Below are positions 16,769-38,718 of a DNA stretch of 64,000 nt, piece by piece. The first letter of the stretch is position 1. Each line of letters begins with the position of its first letter. This DNA is from Leifsonia poae (lineage in GTDB: Bacteria > Actinomycetota > Actinomycetes > Actinomycetales > Microbacteriaceae): NCBI RefSeq assembly GCF_027921845.1, contig NZ_BSEN01000015.1, positions 568,636-632,635 of the forward strand, written 5' to 3'. A model generated the notes under the pieces. It was not told where the DNA came from. It did no database searches and saw nothing but the letters and a program-made list of their open reading frames with translations. The position numbers and the translations under genes are program-made.

Positions 16769-18148
16769 ATGAGGTCACCAAGAACGGTTGCTGCAGTCGC
16801 AGCGATCACGATCGCCGGTGTCGGCCTGCTCGCCGGATGCTCCAGCTCCGGCAGCGGCTCGGACAGCAGCGACGGCAAGGTGAGCATCACCGTAGCCAGC
16901 CTGATCCCCGGAAGCGACAAGGCCGCGTTCAAGGCATTCGACGACCGCGTCAAGGAGTTCGAGAAGGCGAACCCGAACATCTCCGTCAAGTCGGAGGAGT
17001 ACCAGTGGACGGGCCCGACCTTCGCGACGCAGCTCGCGGGCGGCACCCTGCCCGACGTGTTCAACGTGCCGTTCACCGACTCGCAGTCGCTGCTGCAGGC
17101 CGGCCAGCTCGCCGACATCACGGCCGAGGTCAAGGCGCTGTCGTACGCCGGCAAGTTCAACGAGAACGTGCTCGCTGTCGCCAAGTCCGGCGACAAGATC
17201 TACGGCATCCCGTACGGCCCGTACGCCATGGGTCTCTCGTACAACCGCGAGATCTTCACCAAGGCCGGTCTCGATCCGGACAAGCCGCCGACCACGTGGG
17301 ACGAAGTGCGCGCCGACGCCAAGACGATCTCGGAGAAGGTTCCGGGTGTCGCGGGCTACATGCAGATGACCAAGGGCAACACCGGTGGCTGGGAGCTCAC
17401 GACCACGGTGTACGCACGCGGTGGCCGGATGGAGACCACCGACGGCGGCAAGACGAAGGTCACGACCAATAACCCGGTCACCAAGGAGGCTCTGCAGTTC
17501 CTGCACGACGTGCGCTGGGAGGACAACGCCGCCGGAAGCAACTTCCTGCTCGACTGGAGCGGCATCAACCAGGCGTTCGGCGCCGGCCAGGTCGCGATGT
17601 ACCCGAGCGGCTCGGATGTGCTTACCGCTCTCGTGCAGCAGAACAACGTGGACCCGAAGAACTACGGTCTGACGGCGCTCCCGCTGTCCGACTCGTCGGA
17701 TGCCGGTGTTCTGGTCGGCGGCAACGTCGCGGCGGTCAGCCCGAAGTCGACGGCGGCCCAGCGGACGGCGGCGGTCAAGTGGATCGACTTCTACTACATG
17801 CAGAAGCTGCTCGACAAGACGCAGGCCATCGCCGACGCCAAGGTGCTCGCCAAGTCGAACCAGCCGGTCGGCGTCCCCACGCTCCCGGTCTTCGACAAGG
17901 CCACCTACGACCAGACGCTGTCCTGGATCAAGCCGGAGGTGAACATCCCGCTCGAGAACGTCGCGCCGTTCACCGACAAGATCTTCGACGCGAACCTCGT
18001 GCCCGAGCCGAACAAGCACACGCAGGAGCTCTACGGTGCCCTCGACTCGGTGGTGCAGGCGGTGCTGACGCAGAAGAACGCCAACGTCGATCAGCTGCTG
18101 ACGACGGTCGACACGAACATCCAGAAGCTCGTCGACGCCGACAAGTAG
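16769..18148 (+). CDS. ABC transporter sugar-binding lipoprotein
   Basis: A 459-residue extracytoplasmic solute-binding protein of the carbohydrate (MalE-like, cluster B) type. It has a signal peptide with lipobox LLAGC (Cys about residue 25), followed by a Ser/Gly linker and segments such as LPDVFNVPFTDSQSLLQAGQLADI, GIPYGPYAMGLSYNREIFTKAGL and FGAGQVAMYPSGS typical of the family. It is anchored outside the membrane and delivers sugar to the two permeases that follow. A GAAAGGA site precedes the ATG. Confidence 0.95.
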   Translation: MRSPRTVAAVAAITIAGVGLLAGCSSSGSGSDSSDGKVSITVASLIPGSDKAAFKAFDDRVKEFEKANPNISVKSEEYQWTGPTFATQLAGGTLPDVFNVPFTDSQSLLQAGQLADITAEVKALSYAGKFNENVLAVAKSGDKIYGIPYGPYAMGLSYNREIFTKAGLDPDKPPTTWDEVRADAKTISEKVPGVAGYMQMTKGNTGGWELTTTVYARGGRMETTDGGKTKVTTNNPVTKEALQFLHDVRWEDNAAGSNFLLDWSGINQAFGAGQVAMYPSGSDVLTALVQQNNVDPKNYGLTALPLSDSSDAGVLVGGNVAAVSPKSTAAQRTAAVKWIDFYYMQKLLDKTQAIADAKVLAKSNQPVGVPTLPVFDKATYDQTLSWIKPEVNIPLENVAPFTDKIFDANLVPEPNKHTQELYGALDSVVQAVLTQKNANVDQLLTTVDTNIQKLVDADK

Positions 18149-29281: not shown

Positions 29282-30208
29282 ATGTTCGCACACAAGAGAG
29301 GCCGCATCGCGGCCGGCGTGATCGCGGCGGGAGCCCTGCTGGCTCTCAGCGCGTGCTCGTCCGGCGGCGGCGCGCTGAGCGGCGACACCGCCTCGTCCGC
29401 GCCCGACACCATCACGGTCGGCTCGGCCGCGTTCCCCGAGAACGAGATCCTGATGCAGATCTACGCACAGGCGCTCGAGTCCAAGGGCGTGAAGGTCACC
29501 ACCAAGCCGAACATCGGCCAGCGCGACGTCTACCTCGCCGCGCTCAAGGACGGCTCGATCGACCTGGTCCCCGAGTACAGCGGCAACCTGCTGCAGTACT
29601 ACTCGAAGGACAGCACGGCGACCTCCAGCGACGACGTCTTCGCCGCGCTGAACGACGCCCTTCCCAGCGGGTTCGAGGTCCTCGATCAGTCGCAGGCCCA
29701 GGACGCCGACTCGTACAACGTCACCAAGGAGTTCTCGGACAAGTACGGCGTCACCAGCCTGGCCGATCTGTCCAAGGTGACGATCCCGCTGGTCGTCGGC
29801 GCGAACCCCGAGTTCGCCACGCGTCCGTACGGCATCCCGGGACTCAAGAGCGCGTACGGCGTGACCGCGACGCTCAAGAAGATCAGCGACAGCGGTGGCC
29901 CGCTGACCGTCGCCGCCCTGAAGAACGGCGACGTCCAGCTCGCGGACATCTACACGACCACGCCCGCGATCAAGGAAAACAACTTCGTGACCCTCAAGGA
30001 CCCGAAGAGCCTGATCGCCGCGCAGAACGTGGTGCCGCTGATCAACAGCAAGAAGGCCTCGAACACTGTCAAGGACGTCCTGAACCAGGTCTCCAAGGCG
30101 CTGACCACCGAGGACCTCATCACGCTGAACAGCGAGAACCAGGGCGCGTCGAAGACACAGCCCGACGCGCTCGCCAAGGAGTGGCTGGCGAGCCACCCGA
30201 TCAAGTAG
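29282..30208 (+). CDS. Osmoprotectant-binding lipoprotein (OpuCC/ProX type)
   Basis: A 308-residue extracellular binding protein with signal peptide and lipobox LSAC (Cys about 25), then ITVGSAAFPENEILMQIYAQALESKGVKV, LKDGSIDLVPEYSGNLLQYY and DVQLADIYTTTPAI, typical of quaternary-amine-binding proteins. It captures glycine betaine, choline or carnitine for import under osmotic stress; which one cannot be told. AAAGAGAGA precedes the ATG. It overlaps the convergent DedA gene by 8 bp. Confidence 0.93.
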   Translation: MFAHKRGRIAAGVIAAGALLALSACSSGGGALSGDTASSAPDTITVGSAAFPENEILMQIYAQALESKGVKVTTKPNIGQRDVYLAALKDGSIDLVPEYSGNLLQYYSKDSTATSSDDVFAALNDALPSGFEVLDQSQAQDADSYNVTKEFSDKYGVTSLADLSKVTIPLVVGANPEFATRPYGIPGLKSAYGVTATLKKISDSGGPLTVAALKNGDVQLADIYTTTPAIKENNFVTLKDPKSLIAAQNVVPLINSKKASNTVKDVLNQVSKALTTEDLITLNSENQGASKTQPDALAKEWLASHPIK

Positions 30209-30893
30209 GCGGGGCTTCGGTCTCAGGTGCGTGCGGCGGCTCGGGTGACCGGGCCGCCGCATCCATGTGCCGGGCCTCCCGCTTCTGAAGCACCTTCTTC
30301 ACCACGATCGCCAGAAGGATGAAGAGGGCGATGACCGCGACGAAGACGTAGCCGGCCCAGTGCAGTTCGCGCGAGAGCTCGCGGTAGCTTCCCGCGGCCG
30401 CCGAACCGACGGAGACGTACGCGAACGCCCAGATCACGCACGCCGGAATCGTCCAACGCATGAAGGTGCGGTACCGCATCGGGCTCATTCCGACCGTCAG
30501 CGGGATCAGCGAGTGCAGCACGGGCAGAAAGCGCGACAGGAACACCGCGATGCCGCCTCGCTTCGCGAGGTACGCCTCCGCGCGGTCCCAGTTGTTCTGG
30601 CCGATGCGACGACCCAGGCCGCTCGCCCGGATCTTGGGGCCGAAGAACCGGCCGAGCGCGAAGCCGATGCTCTCCCCGCAGAGCGCGCCGACGATGACGA
30701 CGATCACGAGGGCGATGTACTCGACCGGATTGCCGACCGCCGTGCTCGCGACGAGCACGATCGTATCGCCGGGCACGACGAGCCCCACGAGGATCGACGT
30801 CTCGAGCAGCATCCCGAGGCCGGCGATGGCCGTGCGCAGAACGGGATCCACGCTCTGCACCAGGTCGAGGATCCAGGTGAGCGCGTCGTTCAC
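30201..30893 (-). CDS. DedA/SNARE-associated family membrane protein
   Basis: A 230-residue membrane protein with the family motif FLSRFLPVLHSLIPLTVGMSPMRYRTF, plus VVPGDTIVLVAS and GALCGESIGFALGRFFG. DedA proteins act as undecaprenyl-phosphate or phospholipid flippases, or in proton-motive-force upkeep. GTG 30893 overlaps the stop of the upstream TetR gene (GTGA), which both fixes the start and puts the gene in that regulator's operon. Confidence 0.92.
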   Translation of the reverse strand: MNDALTWILDLVQSVDPVLRTAIAGLGMLLETSILVGLVVPGDTIVLVASTAVGNPVEYIALVIVVIVGALCGESIGFALGRFFGPKIRASGLGRRIGQNNWDRAEAYLAKRGGIAVFLSRFLPVLHSLIPLTVGMSPMRYRTFMRWTIPACVIWAFAYVSVGSAAAGSYRELSRELHWAGYVFVAVIALFILLAIVVKKVLQKREARHMDAAARSPEPPHAPETEAPPT

Positions 30894-31483
30894 CGGCGGT
30901 CCCCGGTGCGCTGAACGAGGTCCCAGAAGGCGGAGAGGGCGTCGGCCATGTCGGCCTCGCTGTCCAGCATCCACTGCACCTGCATGCCGTCGGCGACCGC
31001 GATGCCGAGCCTGGCGACCTGCAGCGCATCCAGTGCGGGATCGATCCGTCCGGCCTGCTGTTCTGCGCGCACGTGCTTCTCGAGCTGACCGATGAACGTG
31101 CGATAGCGCTCGACGAAGTAGTCGTGGCCCGGGTGATCGTCGTCGGCGGCTTCCGCCGAGATCGTGGCGTAGAGCTGCACGAGGCCGGGGACCTCGGCAT
31201 TGTGCCGCACGGCACCCACCAGGGCGCCGAACGCGTCGAAGTCGCCGGCATCCGGATCGGTACCCGTCACATCCACCTCGTCGCGCTTGCGCAGCACCTC
31301 GGCGAAGAGTTCCTCCTTGGAGGAGAAGTGATGCAACAGTCCCGCCTGGCTGAGCCCGACGGACTCGGCGATCTCGCGCAGAGATGCGCGGCGATACCCC
31401 TTCTGGGCGAACACCTCCAGCGCGGTCGTGAGGATCTCCTCCCGTTTGGCGATCCCCTTGGCGTACGACCCCTTCTTCGGCAT
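30890..31483 (-). CDS. TetR family transcriptional regulator
   Basis: A 197-residue regulator with basic N-terminus and helix-turn-helix ILTTALEVFAQKGYRRASLREIAESVGLSQAGLLHHFSSKEELF. The ligand domain is not diagnostic. It is co-transcribed with, and probably controls, the DedA gene that overlaps its stop. TAGCAT ends 7 nt before the ATG, suggesting a leaderless message. Confidence 0.92.
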   Translation of the reverse strand: MPKKGSYAKGIAKREEILTTALEVFAQKGYRRASLREIAESVGLSQAGLLHHFSSKEELFAEVLRKRDEVDVTGTDPDAGDFDAFGALVGAVRHNAEVPGLVQLYATISAEAADDDHPGHDYFVERYRTFIGQLEKHVRAEQQAGRIDPALDALQVARLGIAVADGMQVQWMLDSEADMADALSAFWDLVQRTGDRR

Positions 31484-31549: not shown

Positions 31550-32494
31550 TCAGCTCGTCAGCACCAGGATGGGCGGCACGAGCACGAGCGCGGCGCAGAT
31601 GACGACCACGAAGGCGCGCGCGGCCGGGCTGATCGGCGCCGGCGGGTCGAGAAGTCGCGCCTCGCGGGACACGAGCGCCGTGCGTCGCTCGGCCGGTGTG
31701 CGACTGTCTTTCGGGGCGCCGAGGACGGCGCCGGCGCTTCCCGTCGCGTCGACGAGCTCGATCGCCTCCGCCAGCACCGTGTCTCCTGACACACGTCGTG
31801 CCTGGTCGTCCGCCAGCATCTCGACGAGCAGAGCGACGGCATCCTGCGCGCGGGTCGCGATCGGGAACCACGGGAGAGCCCGCTTCCACGACCGGAACGC
31901 GTCGAGCAGCAGGTGGTGCTTCTGTCTCAGATGCGCACGCTCGTGCGCGATGACGGCCTCCAGCTGCTCGGGAGTGAGCAGTTCGATCATCCCCTCGGAG
32001 AGCACGGTGATGCTGCGTGCTCCCGGAAGGCAGTAGGCGGCAGGGGCGGGATGGTCGATCACCCGCGTCGACGGCGTGTCGGGAAGCGGGGAGCTCAGCA
32101 GGCCGAGGAGCTCCCGGTGTCGATGCCGCTGGCGGCGGCTGCGCACCGATGTGAGCGCGAGATTGAGGATCAGGTGCACGGCGAGCAGCACGGCCGCGCT
32201 CAGCGCGAAGGTGTTCAGCAGGGATGCCTGCGGCGGGAGAGGGCCGCTGAGGATCGAACCGAAGGCGCTGGCGATCCGGCTCCAGAGGTCGTCGCCGAAC
32301 GGCTGGAGGCCGAAGAGCAGCAGAGAGCCGATCATCGAGATGCCACCGGCGAGGGCGATCGACTGCCAGAGGGCGAGTGCCAGCACGGGAGCCCTGGCGG
32401 GCCAGGATGCACGCGCCAGCAGCGCGGGGACCGGCCAGGCCAGCGCGACGGCGAGCACGCCGAGCGCGAGCGCGATGTCGTTGACGGGCGTCAC
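31550..32494 (-). CDS. M56 (BlaR1/MecR1-like) membrane metalloprotease
   Basis: A 314-residue peptidase with four or five membrane helices and the zinc motif HERAH (184-188) with a likely third ligand in EMLADD (Glu225). Unlike BlaR1 it lacks the extracellular penicillin-binding sensor, as do most actinobacterial M56 proteins. In this family the protease cleaves or inactivates the BlaI-type repressor encoded next to it. GTG start; it follows the BlaI gene by 6 nt, so the two form an operon divergent from cydABDC. Confidence 0.9.
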   Translation of the reverse strand: MTPVNDIALALGVLAVALAWPVPALLARASWPARAPVLALALWQSIALAGGISMIGSLLLFGLQPFGDDLWSRIASAFGSILSGPLPPQASLLNTFALSAAVLLAVHLILNLALTSVRSRRQRHRHRELLGLLSSPLPDTPSTRVIDHPAPAAYCLPGARSITVLSEGMIELLTPEQLEAVIAHERAHLRQKHHLLLDAFRSWKRALPWFPIATRAQDAVALLVEMLADDQARRVSGDTVLAEAIELVDATGSAGAVLGAPKDSRTPAERRTALVSREARLLDPPAPISPAARAFVVVICAALVLVPPILVLTS

Positions 32495-32500
32495 CGGACG

Positions 32501-32869
32501 CTACTGCGAGCGCGTGGAGAGGAGGCGCCGGAGGGTCTCGGCTTCGGACTCGTCGACGGAGCCGACGAAGTGGGCGAGGGCCGCCGTGCGGTCGGACGAG
32601 CTCTCGAGGACCTCGTGCATGAGATCGGCGACATGGCTCGCGCGGGAGAGCGCGGCGAAGTAGAGGTGCGGACGGGTACCGCGGTCGCGCTCGACGAAGC
32701 CCTTGGTCTCGAGACGGGACAGCACGGTGAGCACCGTCGTGAGCGCCGGTCCCTTGCCGTCACCCCGGGATGAAGCTAGCTTGTCGCGTAGTTCGTTGGC
32801 GGAGACAGGGGTGCCGCTGTTCCACAGAGTATCCATCACTGCTCGTTCGAGTTCTCCGAGATTCGCCAC
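32501..32869 (-). CDS. BlaI/MecI family transcriptional repressor
   Basis: A 122-residue winged-helix repressor (LGELERAVMDTLWNSGTPVSANELRDKL; PALTTVLTVLSRLETKGFVERDRGTRPHLYFAALSRASHVADLM). Family members bind TACA-type dyads as dimers and are inactivated by proteolysis within the C-terminal helices. Two TTCTACAC dyads stand in the divergent region with cydA, one overlapping its own promoter. In Mycobacterium a BlaI protein is known to control respiratory genes, which supports control of cytochrome bd here. GTG 32869 lies 6 nt after TACCCT. Confidence 0.94.
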   Translation of the reverse strand: MANLGELERAVMDTLWNSGTPVSANELRDKLASSRGDGKGPALTTVLTVLSRLETKGFVERDRGTRPHLYFAALSRASHVADLMHEVLESSSDRTAALAHFVGSVDESEAETLRRLLSTRSQ

Positions 32870-32875
32870 GGTTCT

Positions 32876-32881
32876 AGGGTA
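32876..32881 (-). promoter_or_regulatory. Putative leaderless -10 of blaI
   Basis: TACCCT on the minus strand ends 6 nt before GTG 32869. With a 17-bp spacer the -35 region would be 32899-32904, touching operator 1 (32902-32918), so bound BlaI should block its own promoter. Confidence 0.5.
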
Positions 32882-32889
32882 GCGCGGCC

Positions 32890-32919
32890 TTGCTGAGAAT
32901 GTTCTACACTGAGTAGAAA
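32890..32919 (+). promoter_or_regulatory. Putative cydABDC promoter
   Basis: TTGCTG (32890-32895), an 18-bp spacer and TAGAAA (32914-32919). The -10 lies inside operator 1 and the predicted transcription start near 32926 lies inside operator 2, the usual geometry for direct repression. Confidence 0.5.
32902..32918. promoter_or_regulatory. BlaI-type operator 1
   Basis: TTCTACACTGAGTAGAA is a 17-bp imperfect dyad (TTCTAC/GTAGAA outer arms) with the TCTACA core expected of BlaI/MecI sites. It overlaps both the cydA -10 and the blaI -35 region. Confidence 0.75.
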
Positions 32920-32923
32920 TGTG

Positions 32924-32940
32924 TTCTACACGGTGTAGAA
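32924..32940. promoter_or_regulatory. BlaI-type operator 2
   Basis: TTCTACACGGTGTAGAA is a perfect 8-bp-arm dyad around a central G. Its start is 22 bp after that of operator 1, about two helical turns, so two dimers could bind the same face cooperatively. Confidence 0.8.
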
Positions 32941-32964
32941 ACCATGGGGATTGGTGGAGTTGCT

Positions 32965-34377
32965 GTGAACGAATGGTTAGATCCGCTGCTGCTCTCGCGG
33001 TGGCAGTTCGGATTGACGACGATCTACCACTTTCTGTTCGTCCCGATCACGATCGGGGTCGTGACCGTCGTCGCCATCTTCCAGACGGCGTGGTACCGCA
33101 CGGGCAAGGTGCACTATCTGCAGCTCACCCACTTCTTCGGCAAGATCTTCCTGATCAACTTCGCCATGGGCGTCGTCACCGGCATCGTGCAGGAGTTCCA
33201 GTTCGGCATGAACTGGTCCAACTACTCGCGCTTCGTCGGCGACGTCTTCGGCGCCCCGCTCGCCCTCGAGGGTCTGCTCGCCTTCTTCCTGGAGGCGACC
33301 TTCATCGGCCTGTGGATCTTCGGCTGGGACAAACTCCCACGAGGGCTCCATCTCGCCACCATCTGGCTCACCGCGGCCGGCAGCATCCTCTCGGCGTACT
33401 TCATCATCGCCGCGAACGCATTCATGCAGAACCCTGTCGGCTACACGCTCAACGAGGGGCGGGGCCGTGCCGAGCTGACCGACATCTGGGCCGTGCTCAC
33501 GAACAAGGTGGCACTGGCCGCGTTCCCGCACACGATCTTCGCGTGCTTCATGGTGTCGGCGGGACTGATCATCTCGGTGGCCGCGTGGCATCTCGCGCGT
33601 AAGCAGAACATCGAGACGATGCGTCCGGCGCTCAAGTTCGGCCTGTGGACGATGGTCGGCGCCGGTGCGCTCACCGTGCTGAGCGGCGACCAGCTCGGAC
33701 TCGCCATGGTGCAGACCCAGCCGATGAAGATGGCCGCGGCAGAGGCTCTCTACAAGACATCAACCGGCGCCGATGCATCGTTCTCGATCTTCACGCTGGG
33801 CACGCCGGACGGAGTGCACGAACTGTTCTCCATCCGCATCCCGTACCTGCTGTCGTTCCTGTCGACGCACACGCTCGACGGCACGGTCGAAGGCATCAAC
33901 GACCTCCAGGCGCACTACGTGCAGATCTATGGCCCCGGTGACTACACGCCCATCATCTGGGTCACCTACTGGGCGTTCCGCTGGATGATCGGACTCGGCG
34001 CGCTCCACGTGCTCATCGCCGTCGTCGGTCTGTGGATCACCAGGAAGGGCCGCATGCCGCAGCGGGTCTGGGTGTGGAAGGTCGCGATCTGGGCGTTCCC
34101 GCTCTCACTGCTGGCGATGACCGTCGGCTGGATCTTCACCGAGATGGGCAGACAACCGTGGATCGTCTTCAGCCTCATGAAGACGGCCGACGGCGTCTCG
34201 CCGAACGTCACCGGGCTCACCGTGCTCATCTCGCTCGTGGCGTTCACGGCGATCTACGGAGTGCTCGCGGTGGTCGAGTTCCTGCTCATCAAACGTGCGG
34301 CCCAGAAGGGCCCGGCCCCCGTCGAGGATCACCTCGACGAAGAGGGAAAACACGTCCCGGTCGCGACGGTCTACTAG
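32965..34377 (+). CDS. cydA: Cytochrome bd oxidase subunit I
   Basis: A 470-residue quinol oxidase subunit carrying hemes b558, b595 and d. Visible marks are the N-terminal LLSRWQFGLTTIYHFLFVPITIG, with a heme-ligand His, GIVQEFQFGMNWSNYSRFVGDVFGAPLALEGLLAFFLE, and the invariant GRQPWIVF. GTG 32965 has GGAG 5 nt upstream and gives the family N-terminus; ATG 32944 would add seven residues. It is first gene of cydABDC. The enzyme gives high-affinity, low-proton-pumping respiration under low oxygen, nitric oxide or stress. Confidence 0.96.
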   Translation: MNEWLDPLLLSRWQFGLTTIYHFLFVPITIGVVTVVAIFQTAWYRTGKVHYLQLTHFFGKIFLINFAMGVVTGIVQEFQFGMNWSNYSRFVGDVFGAPLALEGLLAFFLEATFIGLWIFGWDKLPRGLHLATIWLTAAGSILSAYFIIAANAFMQNPVGYTLNEGRGRAELTDIWAVLTNKVALAAFPHTIFACFMVSAGLIISVAAWHLARKQNIETMRPALKFGLWTMVGAGALTVLSGDQLGLAMVQTQPMKMAAAEALYKTSTGADASFSIFTLGTPDGVHELFSIRIPYLLSFLSTHTLDGTVEGINDLQAHYVQIYGPGDYTPIIWVTYWAFRWMIGLGALHVLIAVVGLWITRKGRMPQRVWVWKVAIWAFPLSLLAMTVGWIFTEMGRQPWIVFSLMKTADGVSPNVTGLTVLISLVAFTAIYGVLAVVEFLLIKRAAQKGPAPVEDHLDEEGKHVPVATVY

Positions 34378-34386
34378 GAGACACTG

Positions 34387-35409
34387 ATGGATCTGGCAAT
34401 TCTCTGGTTCGGCATCGTCGCCTTCTTCTTCGTCGGCTACTTCGTGCTCGACGGCTTCGACTTCGGCGTGGGGATGGCGTTGCCGTTCCTGGGCAAGGAC
34501 GACGTCGACCGTCGCGTGATGATCAACACCATCGGCCCGGTCTGGGACCTCAACGAGACCTGGGTGATCGTCGGCGGCGCTGCGCTGTTCGCGGCCTTCC
34601 CCGAGTGGTACGCGACGCTGTTCAGCGGCTTCTATCTGGCCCTGCTCCTCATCCTGCTGGCGCTCATCGCCCGCGGCGTCTCGTTCGAGTACCGTCACCA
34701 GCGCCCCGACTCGCGCTGGAAGAAGTGGTTCGACGGCATGATCATCGTCGGGTCGGCTCTGCCCGCGTTCCTGTGGGGCTGCGCCTTCGCCAACATCGTG
34801 CAGGGCGTCGCCCTCGATGCCCAGCACAACTACACGGGGACGCTCTTCGACCTGCTCAACCCGTACGGGCTGCTCGGCGGCCTGACGACACTGCTGCTGT
34901 TCTTCACCCACGGGGTCGTGTTCATCTCGCTCAAGACGGACGGTCCCATCCGTGAGCGGGCCCGCCGGCTCGCCGTGAGGTCGGGCGCGATCGCGATCGT
35001 CGTCGCGGCGGCGTTCCTGCTCTGGACCGGCATCGCGCACTTCTCGGTCGTATTCCTGATCCTCGCCGCGCTGGCGGCGGTCGCCCTGATCTCGTCGTGG
35101 GTCGCCAACCTGCGCGGTGCGGAGGGATGGTCGTTCACGTTCATGGCGCTCACCATCGGCCTCGCCGTGGTGTCGCTGTTCGCAGCACTGTTCCCGAACG
35201 TGATGCCCTCCTCGCCGAACCCGGAGAACAGCCTGACGATCGCCAATGCGTCGAGCACCGATACGACGCTCACCGTGATGACCTGGGTCGCCGCGATCTT
35301 CCTGCCACTGATCCTGCTCTACCAGGGGTTCACCTACTGGATCTTCCGCAAGCGCGTGACCCGTGCCCAGATCCCGGAAGAAGCTCCGGTCACCGCGAAC
35401 GCCGCCTGA
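34387..35409 (+). CDS. cydB: Cytochrome bd oxidase subunit II
   Basis: A 340-residue membrane subunit without heme that stabilises CydA. Characteristic segments are FFFVGYFVLDGFDFGVGMALPFLG, INTIGPVWDLNETWVIVGGAALFAAFPEWYATLFSGFYL and RGVSFEYRHQ. AGGAGA precedes the ATG. It lies 9 nt after cydA and 2 nt before the cydD start. Confidence 0.96.
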   Translation: MDLAILWFGIVAFFFVGYFVLDGFDFGVGMALPFLGKDDVDRRVMINTIGPVWDLNETWVIVGGAALFAAFPEWYATLFSGFYLALLLILLALIARGVSFEYRHQRPDSRWKKWFDGMIIVGSALPAFLWGCAFANIVQGVALDAQHNYTGTLFDLLNPYGLLGGLTTLLLFFTHGVVFISLKTDGPIRERARRLAVRSGAIAIVVAAAFLLWTGIAHFSVVFLILAALAAVALISSWVANLRGAEGWSFTFMALTIGLAVVSLFAALFPNVMPSSPNPENSLTIANASSTDTTLTVMTWVAAIFLPLILLYQGFTYWIFRKRVTRAQIPEEAPVTANAA

Positions 35410-35411
35410 CC

Positions 35412-37049
35412 GTGCGTCCTCTCGATCCCCGTCTGCTCCGCTACGCCGCGGCGGCGCGCACCATGCTCGCCGCCGGAGGTGCGCTCGCGCTCCTGCGCAC
35501 GGCAAGCATCATCGCGTTCGCCTGGCTCGTCACTCAGGTGGTCGTGCGCGCGATCGCCGGGGACGACATCGCGGCGATCAGTGGGCTGCTCGGCGCGCTG
35601 GTGCTCGTGATCCTCGTGCGGGGTCTGGTGATCTGGTTGTCCGACGCGGCGGCGGCGCGCGGTGGGGCCGCCGTCATCGGCCAGTTGCGTCAGGCCTTGA
35701 CCGGCGCCATCGGCCGGCTCGGACCGAGCTGGCTCTCGACGCGCAGCGGCACGCAGGTGACGCTCACGATCGGCCGCGGGCTCGATGCTCTCGAGGGATA
35801 CTTCACGGCCTACGTGCCGCAGCTCATCCTGACCGCCGTTGCGACCCCGCTGCTGGTCGGGATGATCTTCTGGAGCGACCCGACGAGCGGCATCATCGTG
35901 CTCATCACGCTGCCGCTCATCCCGATCTTCATGATGCTCATCGGCTGGGCGACCCAGGCGGCGCAGCAGAAGCAGTGGGCGGCCCTGTCGACACTGTCGC
36001 GGGGCTTCCTCGACGTTGTCGACGGGCTGTCGACGCTCAAGCTCTTCGGGCGGCAGCACCGGCAGACGGCCCGGATCCGCGCGGTCAGCGACGAGTACCG
36101 GGTGCACACCATGAAGGTGCTGCGAATGTCCTTCCTCTCGGGGTTCGTGCTCGAACTCGCAGCGAGCCTTTCGGTGGCGCTCGTCGCGGTAGCGATCGGG
36201 CTCCGGCTGCTGAACGGTCAGCTCGATCTGTCGGTCGGGCTGTTCGTGCTGCTGCTCGCGCCGGAGGCCTTCCTCCCGCTCCGCAACGTCGGCGCGGCGT
36301 ACCACGCGGCGACGGAGGGCATCGAGGCCGCACAGGGCGCCTTCGAGATCCTCGACGCCGACCGCGCGTCGGTGCCTCAGGCGGCCCCGCCGGCGGCTCA
36401 ACAGGATCTCACCCGCGCATCACTGACGTTCGACGACGTGACGATTGCGTACGACGGTCGGCCGATCGTCGCCGGATTCAGCGCCGAGGCTCGGGCGGGC
36501 GCGCTCAGTGTGCTGAGCGCGCCGAGCGGGTCCGGGAAGTCGAGCCTGATCGGGGCTGCCCTCGGGTTCACTCCCGCCTCGGGCCGGATAGCGGTGGGAG
36601 CGGAGCACGACGACCTCGTCCGGCGCTCTCTCATCGCGTGGTCGGGGCAGAATCCCGGACTGATCGCCGGCACGATCGCCGCGAACGTCACCCTCGGTGC
36701 CCCCGCTCCGGATGCCGACCTGGTCGCCGCGTCGCTGCGGGAGGCGGCGGCGCCGGAGCTCGAGCCGTCGACACTGCTCGGCCCCGGCGGGAGGGGTCTC
36801 TCGGGCGGACAGGCGCAGCGTGTCGCGGTCGCGCGGGCGCTGTACCGGATGCGCGCCGAGCGCTGCCCGGTGCTGATCCTCGATGAGCCCACATCCGCGC
36901 TCGACGACGCGACGGAGGCCGCGCTGATCGTGAATCTCCGGCGTGTGGCCGCTGAAGGCCGCACCGTGGTGGTCGTCAGCCACCGTGCCCCCGTCGTCGA
37001 GGCCGCCGACCACGTGATACCGCTGGAGGTGCTGACCAGTGTCCGCTGA
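35412..37049 (+). CDS. cydD: Thiol reductant ABC exporter subunit CydD
   Basis: A 545-residue half-transporter: six membrane helices then an ATPase with Walker A APSGSGKSS, signature LSGGQAQR and Walker B VLILDEP. CydDC exports cysteine or glutathione and is required to assemble cytochrome bd. The region AYVPQLILTAVATPLLVGMIFWSDPTSGIIVLITLPLIPIFMMLIG matches CydD. Start GTG 35412 is placed by family length. It overlaps cydC by 11 nt. Confidence 0.93.
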   Translation: MRPLDPRLLRYAAAARTMLAAGGALALLRTASIIAFAWLVTQVVVRAIAGDDIAAISGLLGALVLVILVRGLVIWLSDAAAARGGAAVIGQLRQALTGAIGRLGPSWLSTRSGTQVTLTIGRGLDALEGYFTAYVPQLILTAVATPLLVGMIFWSDPTSGIIVLITLPLIPIFMMLIGWATQAAQQKQWAALSTLSRGFLDVVDGLSTLKLFGRQHRQTARIRAVSDEYRVHTMKVLRMSFLSGFVLELAASLSVALVAVAIGLRLLNGQLDLSVGLFVLLLAPEAFLPLRNVGAAYHAATEGIEAAQGAFEILDADRASVPQAAPPAAQQDLTRASLTFDDVTIAYDGRPIVAGFSAEARAGALSVLSAPSGSGKSSLIGAALGFTPASGRIAVGAEHDDLVRRSLIAWSGQNPGLIAGTIAANVTLGAPAPDADLVAASLREAAAPELEPSTLLGPGGRGLSGGQAQRVAVARALYRMRAERCPVLILDEPTSALDDATEAALIVNLRRVAAEGRTVVVVSHRAPVVEAADHVIPLEVLTSVR

Positions 37050-38718
37050 ATCCGCTCCGACCCGGCGCATCCTCCGGCTTGCGCTTCCCCCCGCCCGCCG
37101 GTTGTGGGTCGGCATCGCGTTCGGCGTGCTGAGCGCCGGCAGCGCTGTCGCCCTGCTGGCCGTCTCGGCGTGGCTGATCACCCGGGCGTCCGAGCAGCCC
37201 GCACTGATCTACATCTCGATGGCGGTCGTCGGCGTTCGGGCGTTCGCGCTCGGCCGGGCCTTCTTCCGCTATCTCGAGCGGCTCTCGGGTCACGATGCGG
37301 CCTTCCGGCAGTTGGCGACCATCCGCTCCGAACTGTTCGGGAGGCTGGTGCCCCTCGCGCCCGACGGCCTCGGCGACACCCGACGTGGTGACCTGCTGAC
37401 CCGGGTAGCGGATGATGTCGACGAACTGCAGAATCACTCGCTCCGCGTCGTGCAGCCGCTCGTCACCGCCGGGATCATCGCCGCCGTGAGCGTCGTCGGC
37501 GTTACCCTGCTTCTTCCCGAGGCCGGACTCGCCCTCCTCGTCTCGCTCGTTCTCGCCTTCCTCCTGGGCACACTGATCAACCGCTGGGCATCCGGCGCGG
37601 CCGAGCGCACCATCGCCCCGCTCCGGGCAGCACTCAACGACAGCGTCAGCGACCTGGTCGGAAACCTGGATGTGCTCACGGCCTACGGCGCCCTGGACAG
37701 CGCACAGCAGCGGGTCGGCGCCGCGAGTCGCACGCTCACCGACGCCATCCGGTCCCGCGCCTCGGGGTCCGCGTTGACCAGCGCCGTCGTGTCCGTTCTC
37801 GCGGGCGCGGCGACCGCTGCTGCGTTGGCGGCGGGGGTTCCCGCTCTCGGCGCCCACCGGCTCGACGGGCCGACGCTCGCGGTGATCGCGCTGCTGCCGC
37901 TCGCCGTGTTCGAGGTGTTCGGAACGGTGCCCCTGGCACTCGGTGCGCGACGCCAGGTGATCGCCAGCGCACGGCGGCTCGCCGCCACGACGCCCGACCA
38001 GCCGCCGGCAGGGGTGCCGGTCGACCGGCCCGACGCCGTGGCGCTCGACCGTCACGTGGGTCCCGTCATCGAGTTGCGGGGGATGAGCGCGCGATGGCCA
38101 GGAACGGCGGAACCGGTGCTGGACGACGTGTCGATCCGTCTGCACCCCGGCGAGCGCGTCGTGTTGACCGGCCCGACGGGTGCGGGGAAGACGGCCCTTG
38201 CCCATGTGCTCACCCGCTTCATCGACTACGAGGGCTCGTACACGATCGACGGCGTAGAGGCGAGGGATGCTCGGCAGGATGATGTGCGAACGATCATCGG
38301 GCTCTGCGAGCAGCGACCGTATCTGTTCGATTCCGACCTCCGTCAGAACCTGCTGTTCGCCAAGGACACTGCGACCGACGATGAGCTGTTCGCTGTGCTC
38401 GAACGAGTGGGCCTGAGCGACTGGGCCGTCGAGCGCGGTGGACTGGGGGCGCCGGTGGGGGAGCGCGGTGCGCTCGTGTCCGGAGGACAGGCACAGCGGA
38501 TCGCCGTCGCGCGGGCGATCCTGGCCGACTTCCCCGTGCTGATCGTCGATGAACCGGCGGCGAACGTGGATGCCCGCATCGCCGACCGGGTCGTTCGCGA
38601 CATCCTGACGACGGCCGCGGAGGACGGGCGTACGGTGCTGCTCATCTCCCACACCGCTGTGCCGGATGACCTGATCACGCGTCGGGTCCGCCTCGAGCGC
38701 GGTCGCGTGCTCGCGTAA
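37039..38718 (+). CDS. cydC: Thiol reductant ABC exporter subunit CydC
   Basis: A 559-residue partner half-transporter with the CydC-like membrane start AVSAWLITRASEQPALIYISMAVVGVRAFALGRAFFRYLERLSGHDA and an ATPase having Walker A GPTGAGKTA, signature VSGGQAQR and Walker B VLIVDEPAANVD. It starts with GTG inside cydD. Having all four cyd genes in one run means oxidase and assembly factor are co-expressed from one regulated promoter. It is convergent with pabC. Confidence 0.93.
   Translation: MSAESAPTRRILRLALPPARRLWVGIAFGVLSAGSAVALLAVSAWLITRASEQPALIYISMAVVGVRAFALGRAFFRYLERLSGHDAAFRQLATIRSELFGRLVPLAPDGLGDTRRGDLLTRVADDVDELQNHSLRVVQPLVTAGIIAAVSVVGVTLLLPEAGLALLVSLVLAFLLGTLINRWASGAAERTIAPLRAALNDSVSDLVGNLDVLTAYGALDSAQQRVGAASRTLTDAIRSRASGSALTSAVVSVLAGAATAAALAAGVPALGAHRLDGPTLAVIALLPLAVFEVFGTVPLALGARRQVIASARRLAATTPDQPPAGVPVDRPDAVALDRHVGPVIELRGMSARWPGTAEPVLDDVSIRLHPGERVVLTGPTGAGKTALAHVLTRFIDYEGSYTIDGVEARDARQDDVRTIIGLCEQRPYLFDSDLRQNLLFAKDTATDDELFAVLERVGLSDWAVERGGLGAPVGERGALVSGGQAQRIAVARAILADFPVLIVDEPAANVDARIADRVVRDILTTAAEDGRTVLLISHTAVPDDLITRRVRLERGRVLA

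Follow-up and report, generated by a model that had tools for sequence, protein, structure and literature searches.

Pairs of a BlaI-type repressor and a BlaR1-type protease are best known from penicillin resistance. In the staphylococcal system, a repressor and a membrane protease act together with dyads located between divergent promoters, an arrangement that is also found here. PetR/PetP of Synechocystis combine a BlaI-family factor with a BlaR1-family protease and are described as choosing between electron-transfer proteins. Mycobacterial BlaI has been linked to ATP synthase (PMC12565901, PMC5874750), and cydAB of Mycobacterium tuberculosis is reported to be under other regulation, i.e., by SenX3-RegX3 (PMC5874750). 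Here, we analysed a stretch of 64,000 nucleotides of Leifsonia poae DNA (NZ_BSEN01000015.1; called the window below, with all coordinates being window positions), in which blaI and the gene of a BlaR1-like membrane zinc protease are divergent from cydABDC. We consider this module, with a probability of roughly 0.83, to be a dedicated regulator of cytochrome bd, i.e., BlaI would repress the cyd genes and itself, and the BlaR1-like protease would relieve this repression. In many soil actinobacteria, the repressor-protease pair adjoins the cyd genes and shares a conserved motif with them, so its probable role is the control of respiration and not of antibiotic resistance.

The dyads, the repressor and the protease

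The divergent gap between blaI (32501..32869, minus strand) and cydA (32965..34377, plus strand) measures 95 bp and contains two dyads of the form TTCTAC-N5-GTAGAA. These are TTCTACACTGAGTAGAA at 32902..32918 and TTCTACACGGTGTAGAA at 32924..32940 (no strand assigned), 22 bp apart from start to start, the second one ending 24 bp upstream of the cydA GTG. Both are putative BlaI operators, and their motif is kept in relatives. A preliminary description of this DNA, made from the sequence alone, had placed the dyads at these positions, which the sequence and a chance test confirm. Searching both strands of the window for TTCTACACNGNGTAGAA with at most 3 mismatches yields 6 matches (0.13 expected), 4 of which are the two gap dyads. 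For TTCTAC-N5-GTAGAA with at most 1 mismatch there are 3 window matches compared to 0.00 expected, the third being located at position 17789 with 1 mismatch. A chance origin of the window dyads is excluded. The whole genome holds 5 exact dyads, two of them in the blaI-cydA gap. Regarding the other three (L003, L005 and L006; G000:C3, C12 and C14), two precede genes without Pfam match and the third is without a clear gene.

BlaI is a winged-helix repressor of 122 amino acids (GTG start) and a member of the Penicillinase_R family (PF03965, E 3.3e-22; 79.5 bits at a curated cut-off of 22.6). It provides the only PF03965 match of the window's genome at E 0.001 and stays far below the cut-off of the CopY/TcrY copper repressors (TIGR02698, 26.7 bits vs. 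121.95). Among PDB sequences (E 0.1), its sole match is 2g9w, which we take to be M. tuberculosis Rv1846c. Residue F101 is invariant across 26 aligned BlaI proteins and presumably marks the position of the staphylococcal cleavage site, which is suggestive only.

The protease gene (31550..32494, minus strand) follows blaI after 6 bp and encodes 314 amino acids. Its zinc site HERAH is found at 184-188, complemented by E225, and H184, E185, H188 and E225 are invariant in 31 aligned proteases; proteins below 300 amino acids were left out of the protease alignment. Hydropathy suggests about three transmembrane stretches before the protease part and one after it. That is, an HExxH zinc site is present in a membrane protein encoded beside blaI, as it is in BlaR1/M56 proteins. 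The HERAH site of the preliminary description stands, but its M56 assignment is not supported by profile: the search (E 0.001) found no M56 family and instead returned Peptidase_M48 (E 3.1e-11; 43.9 bits, cut-off 20.3), such that we use M56 as a likeness only. The description was also right in that the protein has no penicillin-binding domain, given that it ends in one transmembrane stretch and shows no such Pfam match.

This last observation bears on the idea that the pair is a beta-lactam sensor with cyd as a side branch. BlaI's family membership would fit such a role, as would the induction of both blaR-blaI and cydAB by amoxicillin plus clavulanate in M. tuberculosis (PMC5473688). The missing penicillin-binding domain speaks against it, even if this is a weak test, and we regard a beta-lactam sensor as unlikely. 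Neither Pfam nor hydropathy nor conservation revealed a sensor domain in the protease. We considered W43 and Q44, which are invariant in 71 cyd-linked proteases; since they also occur in non-linked ones (W43 in 13/17, Q44 in 6/17), no sensor is claimed. As no sensor domain was seen and transmembrane stretches flank an intact zinc site, the origin of the signal is probably within or close to the membrane.

With regard to the cyd genes, cydA encodes cytochrome bd subunit I (PF01654, E 9.9e-161) and most likely starts at GTG 32965 rather than at ATG 32944; GGTGGAG precedes this GTG, and an alignment with Leifsonia GTG starts agrees. It is followed on the plus strand by cydB for subunit II (34387..35409; PF02322 E 1.1e-108, TIGR00203 above cut-off) and by the genes of the two ATP-binding cassette (ABC) exporter subunits, i.e., cydD (35418..37049, start approximate; TIGR02857, 551.8 bits vs. 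a cut-off of 435) and cydC (37039..38718; TIGR02868, 551.4 bits vs. 329.05). A second CydA match of the window's genome lies outside the window (G000:C6:346123-347430), with the genome's only BlaI match being elsewhere.

Conservation of the arrangement and its sites

We compared the locus within its family, using an even draw of 120 genomes from a larger group. BlaI is matched in 74 and CydA in 95 of them, and 60 blaI regions plus the window were compared, which is fewer than the BlaI places found. For BlaI proteins of at least 49% identity (46 loci including the window), cydA is divergent in 45/46 loci; below 49%, this holds for only 2/15. CTAC-N5-GTAG is present in 44/45 family gaps (0.001 per shuffled gap), with a free centre between TTCTAC and GTAGAA, and the N4 spacing form occurs in 0/45. 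Conservation in relatives of the same gene order was the sequence part of the test set by the preliminary description, and the dyads pass it both here and in a second set of named loci.

The latter comprises the best 80 of 569 loci from a BlaI-alignment scan. It thus leans to close kin (mainly Leifsonia, Arthrobacter, Pseudarthrobacter, Paenarthrobacter, Sinomonas, Agromyces and Cryobacterium) and overlaps with the drawn genomes, i.e., the sets are not independent. All 80 loci have a protease homologue downstream of blaI and at least one dyad with at most 1 mismatch (0.0006 per shuffled gap), and 78/80 show a divergent cydA within 700 bp. The exceptions are Arthrobacter sp. AL12 (L297), where cydA is farther away, and L300, without cydA within the 6 kb examined. 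One dyad is found in 4 gaps, two in 18 and three in 58, with neighbouring sites most often 24-25 bp apart. Over the resulting 214 sites, the 12 core letters are nearly fixed and the centre is free.

We also studied 159 genomes evenly drawn from the order, to which all our comparisons are confined. BlaI is found in 69 of them (profile, E 1e-12) and CydA in at least 148. In 57/69 BlaI genomes, covering eight families, blaI is linked to cyd in one of two layouts. The divergent blaI-cydA layout accounts for 50 genomes of seven families. The eighth family, f17, contributes 7 genomes with cydA-cydB-cydD-cydC-blaI on one strand, which holds in 7/7 loci. BlaI is not cyd-linked in the remaining 12 genomes, two of which are without CydA match. 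On the BlaI tree, which is built from few columns and has many weak forks, the cyd-linked label needs 6 changes compared to 24.0 in shuffles.

Do the dyads follow BlaI, or might a different factor bind them with BlaI acting elsewhere? The assignment to BlaI is a prediction, and compared to the TACA-N2-TGTA consensus of staphylococcal BlaI and CopY, the dyads have one extra base of spacing. Still, the exact 12-letter dyad, found in 52/120 family genomes, is present in 43/46 genomes with the cyd-linked BlaI class vs. 9/74 others (hand tally), and a dyad persists at blaI where cydA is absent. Furthermore, the half-sites vary with the BlaI class: families f8, f13, f14 and f15 together with one genus of the window's family carry another class with other sites, i.e., TACTAC and TACGAC half-sites in 21/21 gaps (0.20 and 0.31 in shuffled gaps). 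Binding by another factor is thus hardly to be expected.

The dyads could also serve BlaI autoregulation only, with cydA being a bystander that has stayed next to blaI through descent. Divergent pairs may persist passively, and L215 and L216 have no CydA match yet keep one dyad at blaI. On the other hand, other neighbours of the locus turn over: among the 45 family loci, a TetR gene is near blaI in 1 and a DedA-family gene in 13, compared to 44 for cydB. (The window's DedA-family gene is located at 30201-30974, two genes past the protease gene.) Furthermore, in the 58 named gaps with three sites, the cydA-proximal dyad ends at a median of 33 bp upstream of cydA.

There are also loci where the two genes have parted. 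In G066, BlaI is encoded on another contig and the divergent neighbour of cydA is a DedA gene, but cydA retains two exact sites and a third one with 1 mismatch. In L297, blaI and cydA are 3.8 kb apart, with two exact dyads at cydA and one at blaI. For f17, where blaI sits behind the operon, six promoters were tested (L207, which runs off its contig end, was left out): TACTAC/GTAGTA half-sites are located upstream of cydA in 6/6 (0.21 of shuffles) and CTAC-N5-GTAG in 3/6, while upstream of blaI both are found in 0/6. These separations imply that cydA itself is a target. With the f17 blaI also lacking half-sites of its own, we rate the bystander explanation as very unlikely. The link between dyads and cyd is therefore stronger than the preliminary description could know, as the sites stay at cydA where blaI sits elsewhere. 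In 19 genomes with BlaI unlinked to cyd, a cydA-promoter site is found in 4 at up to 1 mismatch and in 7 at up to 2 mismatches. Four genomes without BlaI show no such site within 3 mismatches.

Proposed regulation and possible wider targets

Given these observations, we propose the following sequence of events. A BlaI dimer would bind the TTCTAC-N5-GTAGAA dyads in the gap, usually two or three in number and mostly 22-25 bp apart, i.e., about two helical turns. Bound BlaI would repress cydABDC as well as its own blaI-protease operon; the two-turn spacing across the 95-bp divergent gap would fit repression of both sides. A signal, which probably originates in the membrane or in the respiratory chain, may then activate the BlaR1-like protease, which would cut or inactivate BlaI such that the backup oxidase is made. 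Overall, the interpretation of the preliminary description is supported, with binding, repression, proteolysis and the signal being inferred from sequence.

Several observations weigh against this proposal. A sigma-70 scan of 32700-33100 found no promoter, i.e., it recovered neither the cydA -10 and blaI -35 elements nor the cydA transcription start named in the preliminary description. Allowing up to 2 mismatches, the window's genome contains 84 motif matches and thus fewer than the 142 of the reversed control, which is why only near-exact sites are informative. Within the order, CTAC-N5-GTAG is present in 6/8 gaps of f6 and f7, both gaps without it belonging to f7, and in 9/21 gaps only of the set with the other BlaI class. 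The remaining 12 of the 19 genomes with unlinked BlaI have no cydA-promoter site, and in f17 the protease is matched in 6/7 loci, one of these matches being on the opposite strand. In the family, G089 encodes a BlaI of 54% identity with cydA not linked and the dyad at neither gene (best motif match at its blaI: 4 mismatches), and G045 has degenerate dyads only. Beside the latter (L082), the cydA match is split into two pieces within a single 651-amino-acid frame.

Beyond the locus, a hand tally gives 120 exact dyads across the 46 genomes that carry the cyd-linked BlaI class, and the blaI gap accounts for 86 of these. The 34 off-locus dyads barely exceed the 26 found for the reversed pattern, so we do not trust single matches and take recurrent ones as candidates only. 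On this footing, pta, flavohaemoglobin, COX2 and atpB are weak candidates for further targets. Sites within 1 mismatch are found in 4/30 pta promoters, two of which had prompted the search (reversed control: 0/30 within 2 mismatches), and no near-exact site precedes pta in the window's own genome. Within the window's genus, two genomes carry a site at the gene directly before pta, one of these genes being DUF1254/DUF1214 (Pfam). Flavohaemoglobin sites occur in G001, G058 and G118, the last two from the same genus; a globin search in 30 genomes missed the known genes of G001 and G118 and thus says nothing on frequency. COX2 sites are found in two genomes of one genus and an atpB site in one genome. 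Several other off-locus sites are located within genes or between convergent genes. In a single case (L142, G007:C1:849771), an exact dyad is found 158 bp before an extracytoplasmic function (ECF) sigma factor gene, which echoes mycobacterial BlaI and sigC. The recurrent candidates lean to respiration and fermentation, similar to the mycobacterial ATP synthase link.

Comparison with described systems

What might the signal be? As a tentative and rather doubtful scenario for Actinomycetes, the old role of BlaI and its membrane protease may be to detect when the main respiratory branch, which contains copper, fails, and to turn on the copper-free cytochrome bd. ATP synthase, flavohaemoglobin, phosphotransacetylase and COX2 would then be lineage-specific additions and beta-lactamase control a later use. 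The copper-linked signal is a bold guess by analogy. PetP acts with copper (PMC7896320), and cyd and rv1303-rv1305 are up in an M. tuberculosis sigC mutant in copper-poor medium, where the authors read the cyd induction as reductive stress (PMC7924339).

The open literature contained no report of a cyd-linked BlaI/protease pair among the matches listed (subscription papers being mostly outside the search) and no paper joining the M56 family and cytochrome bd. For mycobacterial BlaI, Sala 2009 reportedly names five bound loci with cyd not among them. The statement that it binds the cytochrome bd promoter too, made in the discussion of PMC5473688 with reference to that study, is therefore uncertain.

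With regard to M. tuberculosis BlaI/BlaR (Rv1846c/Rv1845c), the likeness is the sequence kinship of BlaI reflected in the only PDB match. Like the protease studied here, mycobacterial BlaR is without an outside sensor domain according to passages of PMC5473688, which, unlike what we find, do not describe the two as a gene pair beside cyd. The staphylococcal BlaR1 senses beta-lactams with an extracellular domain (PMC5473688), while none is seen in the protease here. The two systems also differ in their targets, i.e., beta-lactamase vs. the predicted cyd. Furthermore, the staphylococcal dyad has N4 between TAC and GTA compared to N5 here. PetR/PetP, as far as described, target photosynthetic carriers instead of an oxidase; their signal is copper, and PetR acts as an activator as well as a repressor.

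For eight or more families of a single actinobacterial order, our analysis thus provides cytochrome bd with a candidate regulator and a sharply delimited candidate operator. It also becomes testable, in harmless soil bacteria, which signal a BlaR1-like protease responds to when it has no sensor domain. Beside mycobacterial BlaI and the cyanobacterial PetR/PetP, the module would be a further BlaI/BlaR1-like pair tied to respiration.

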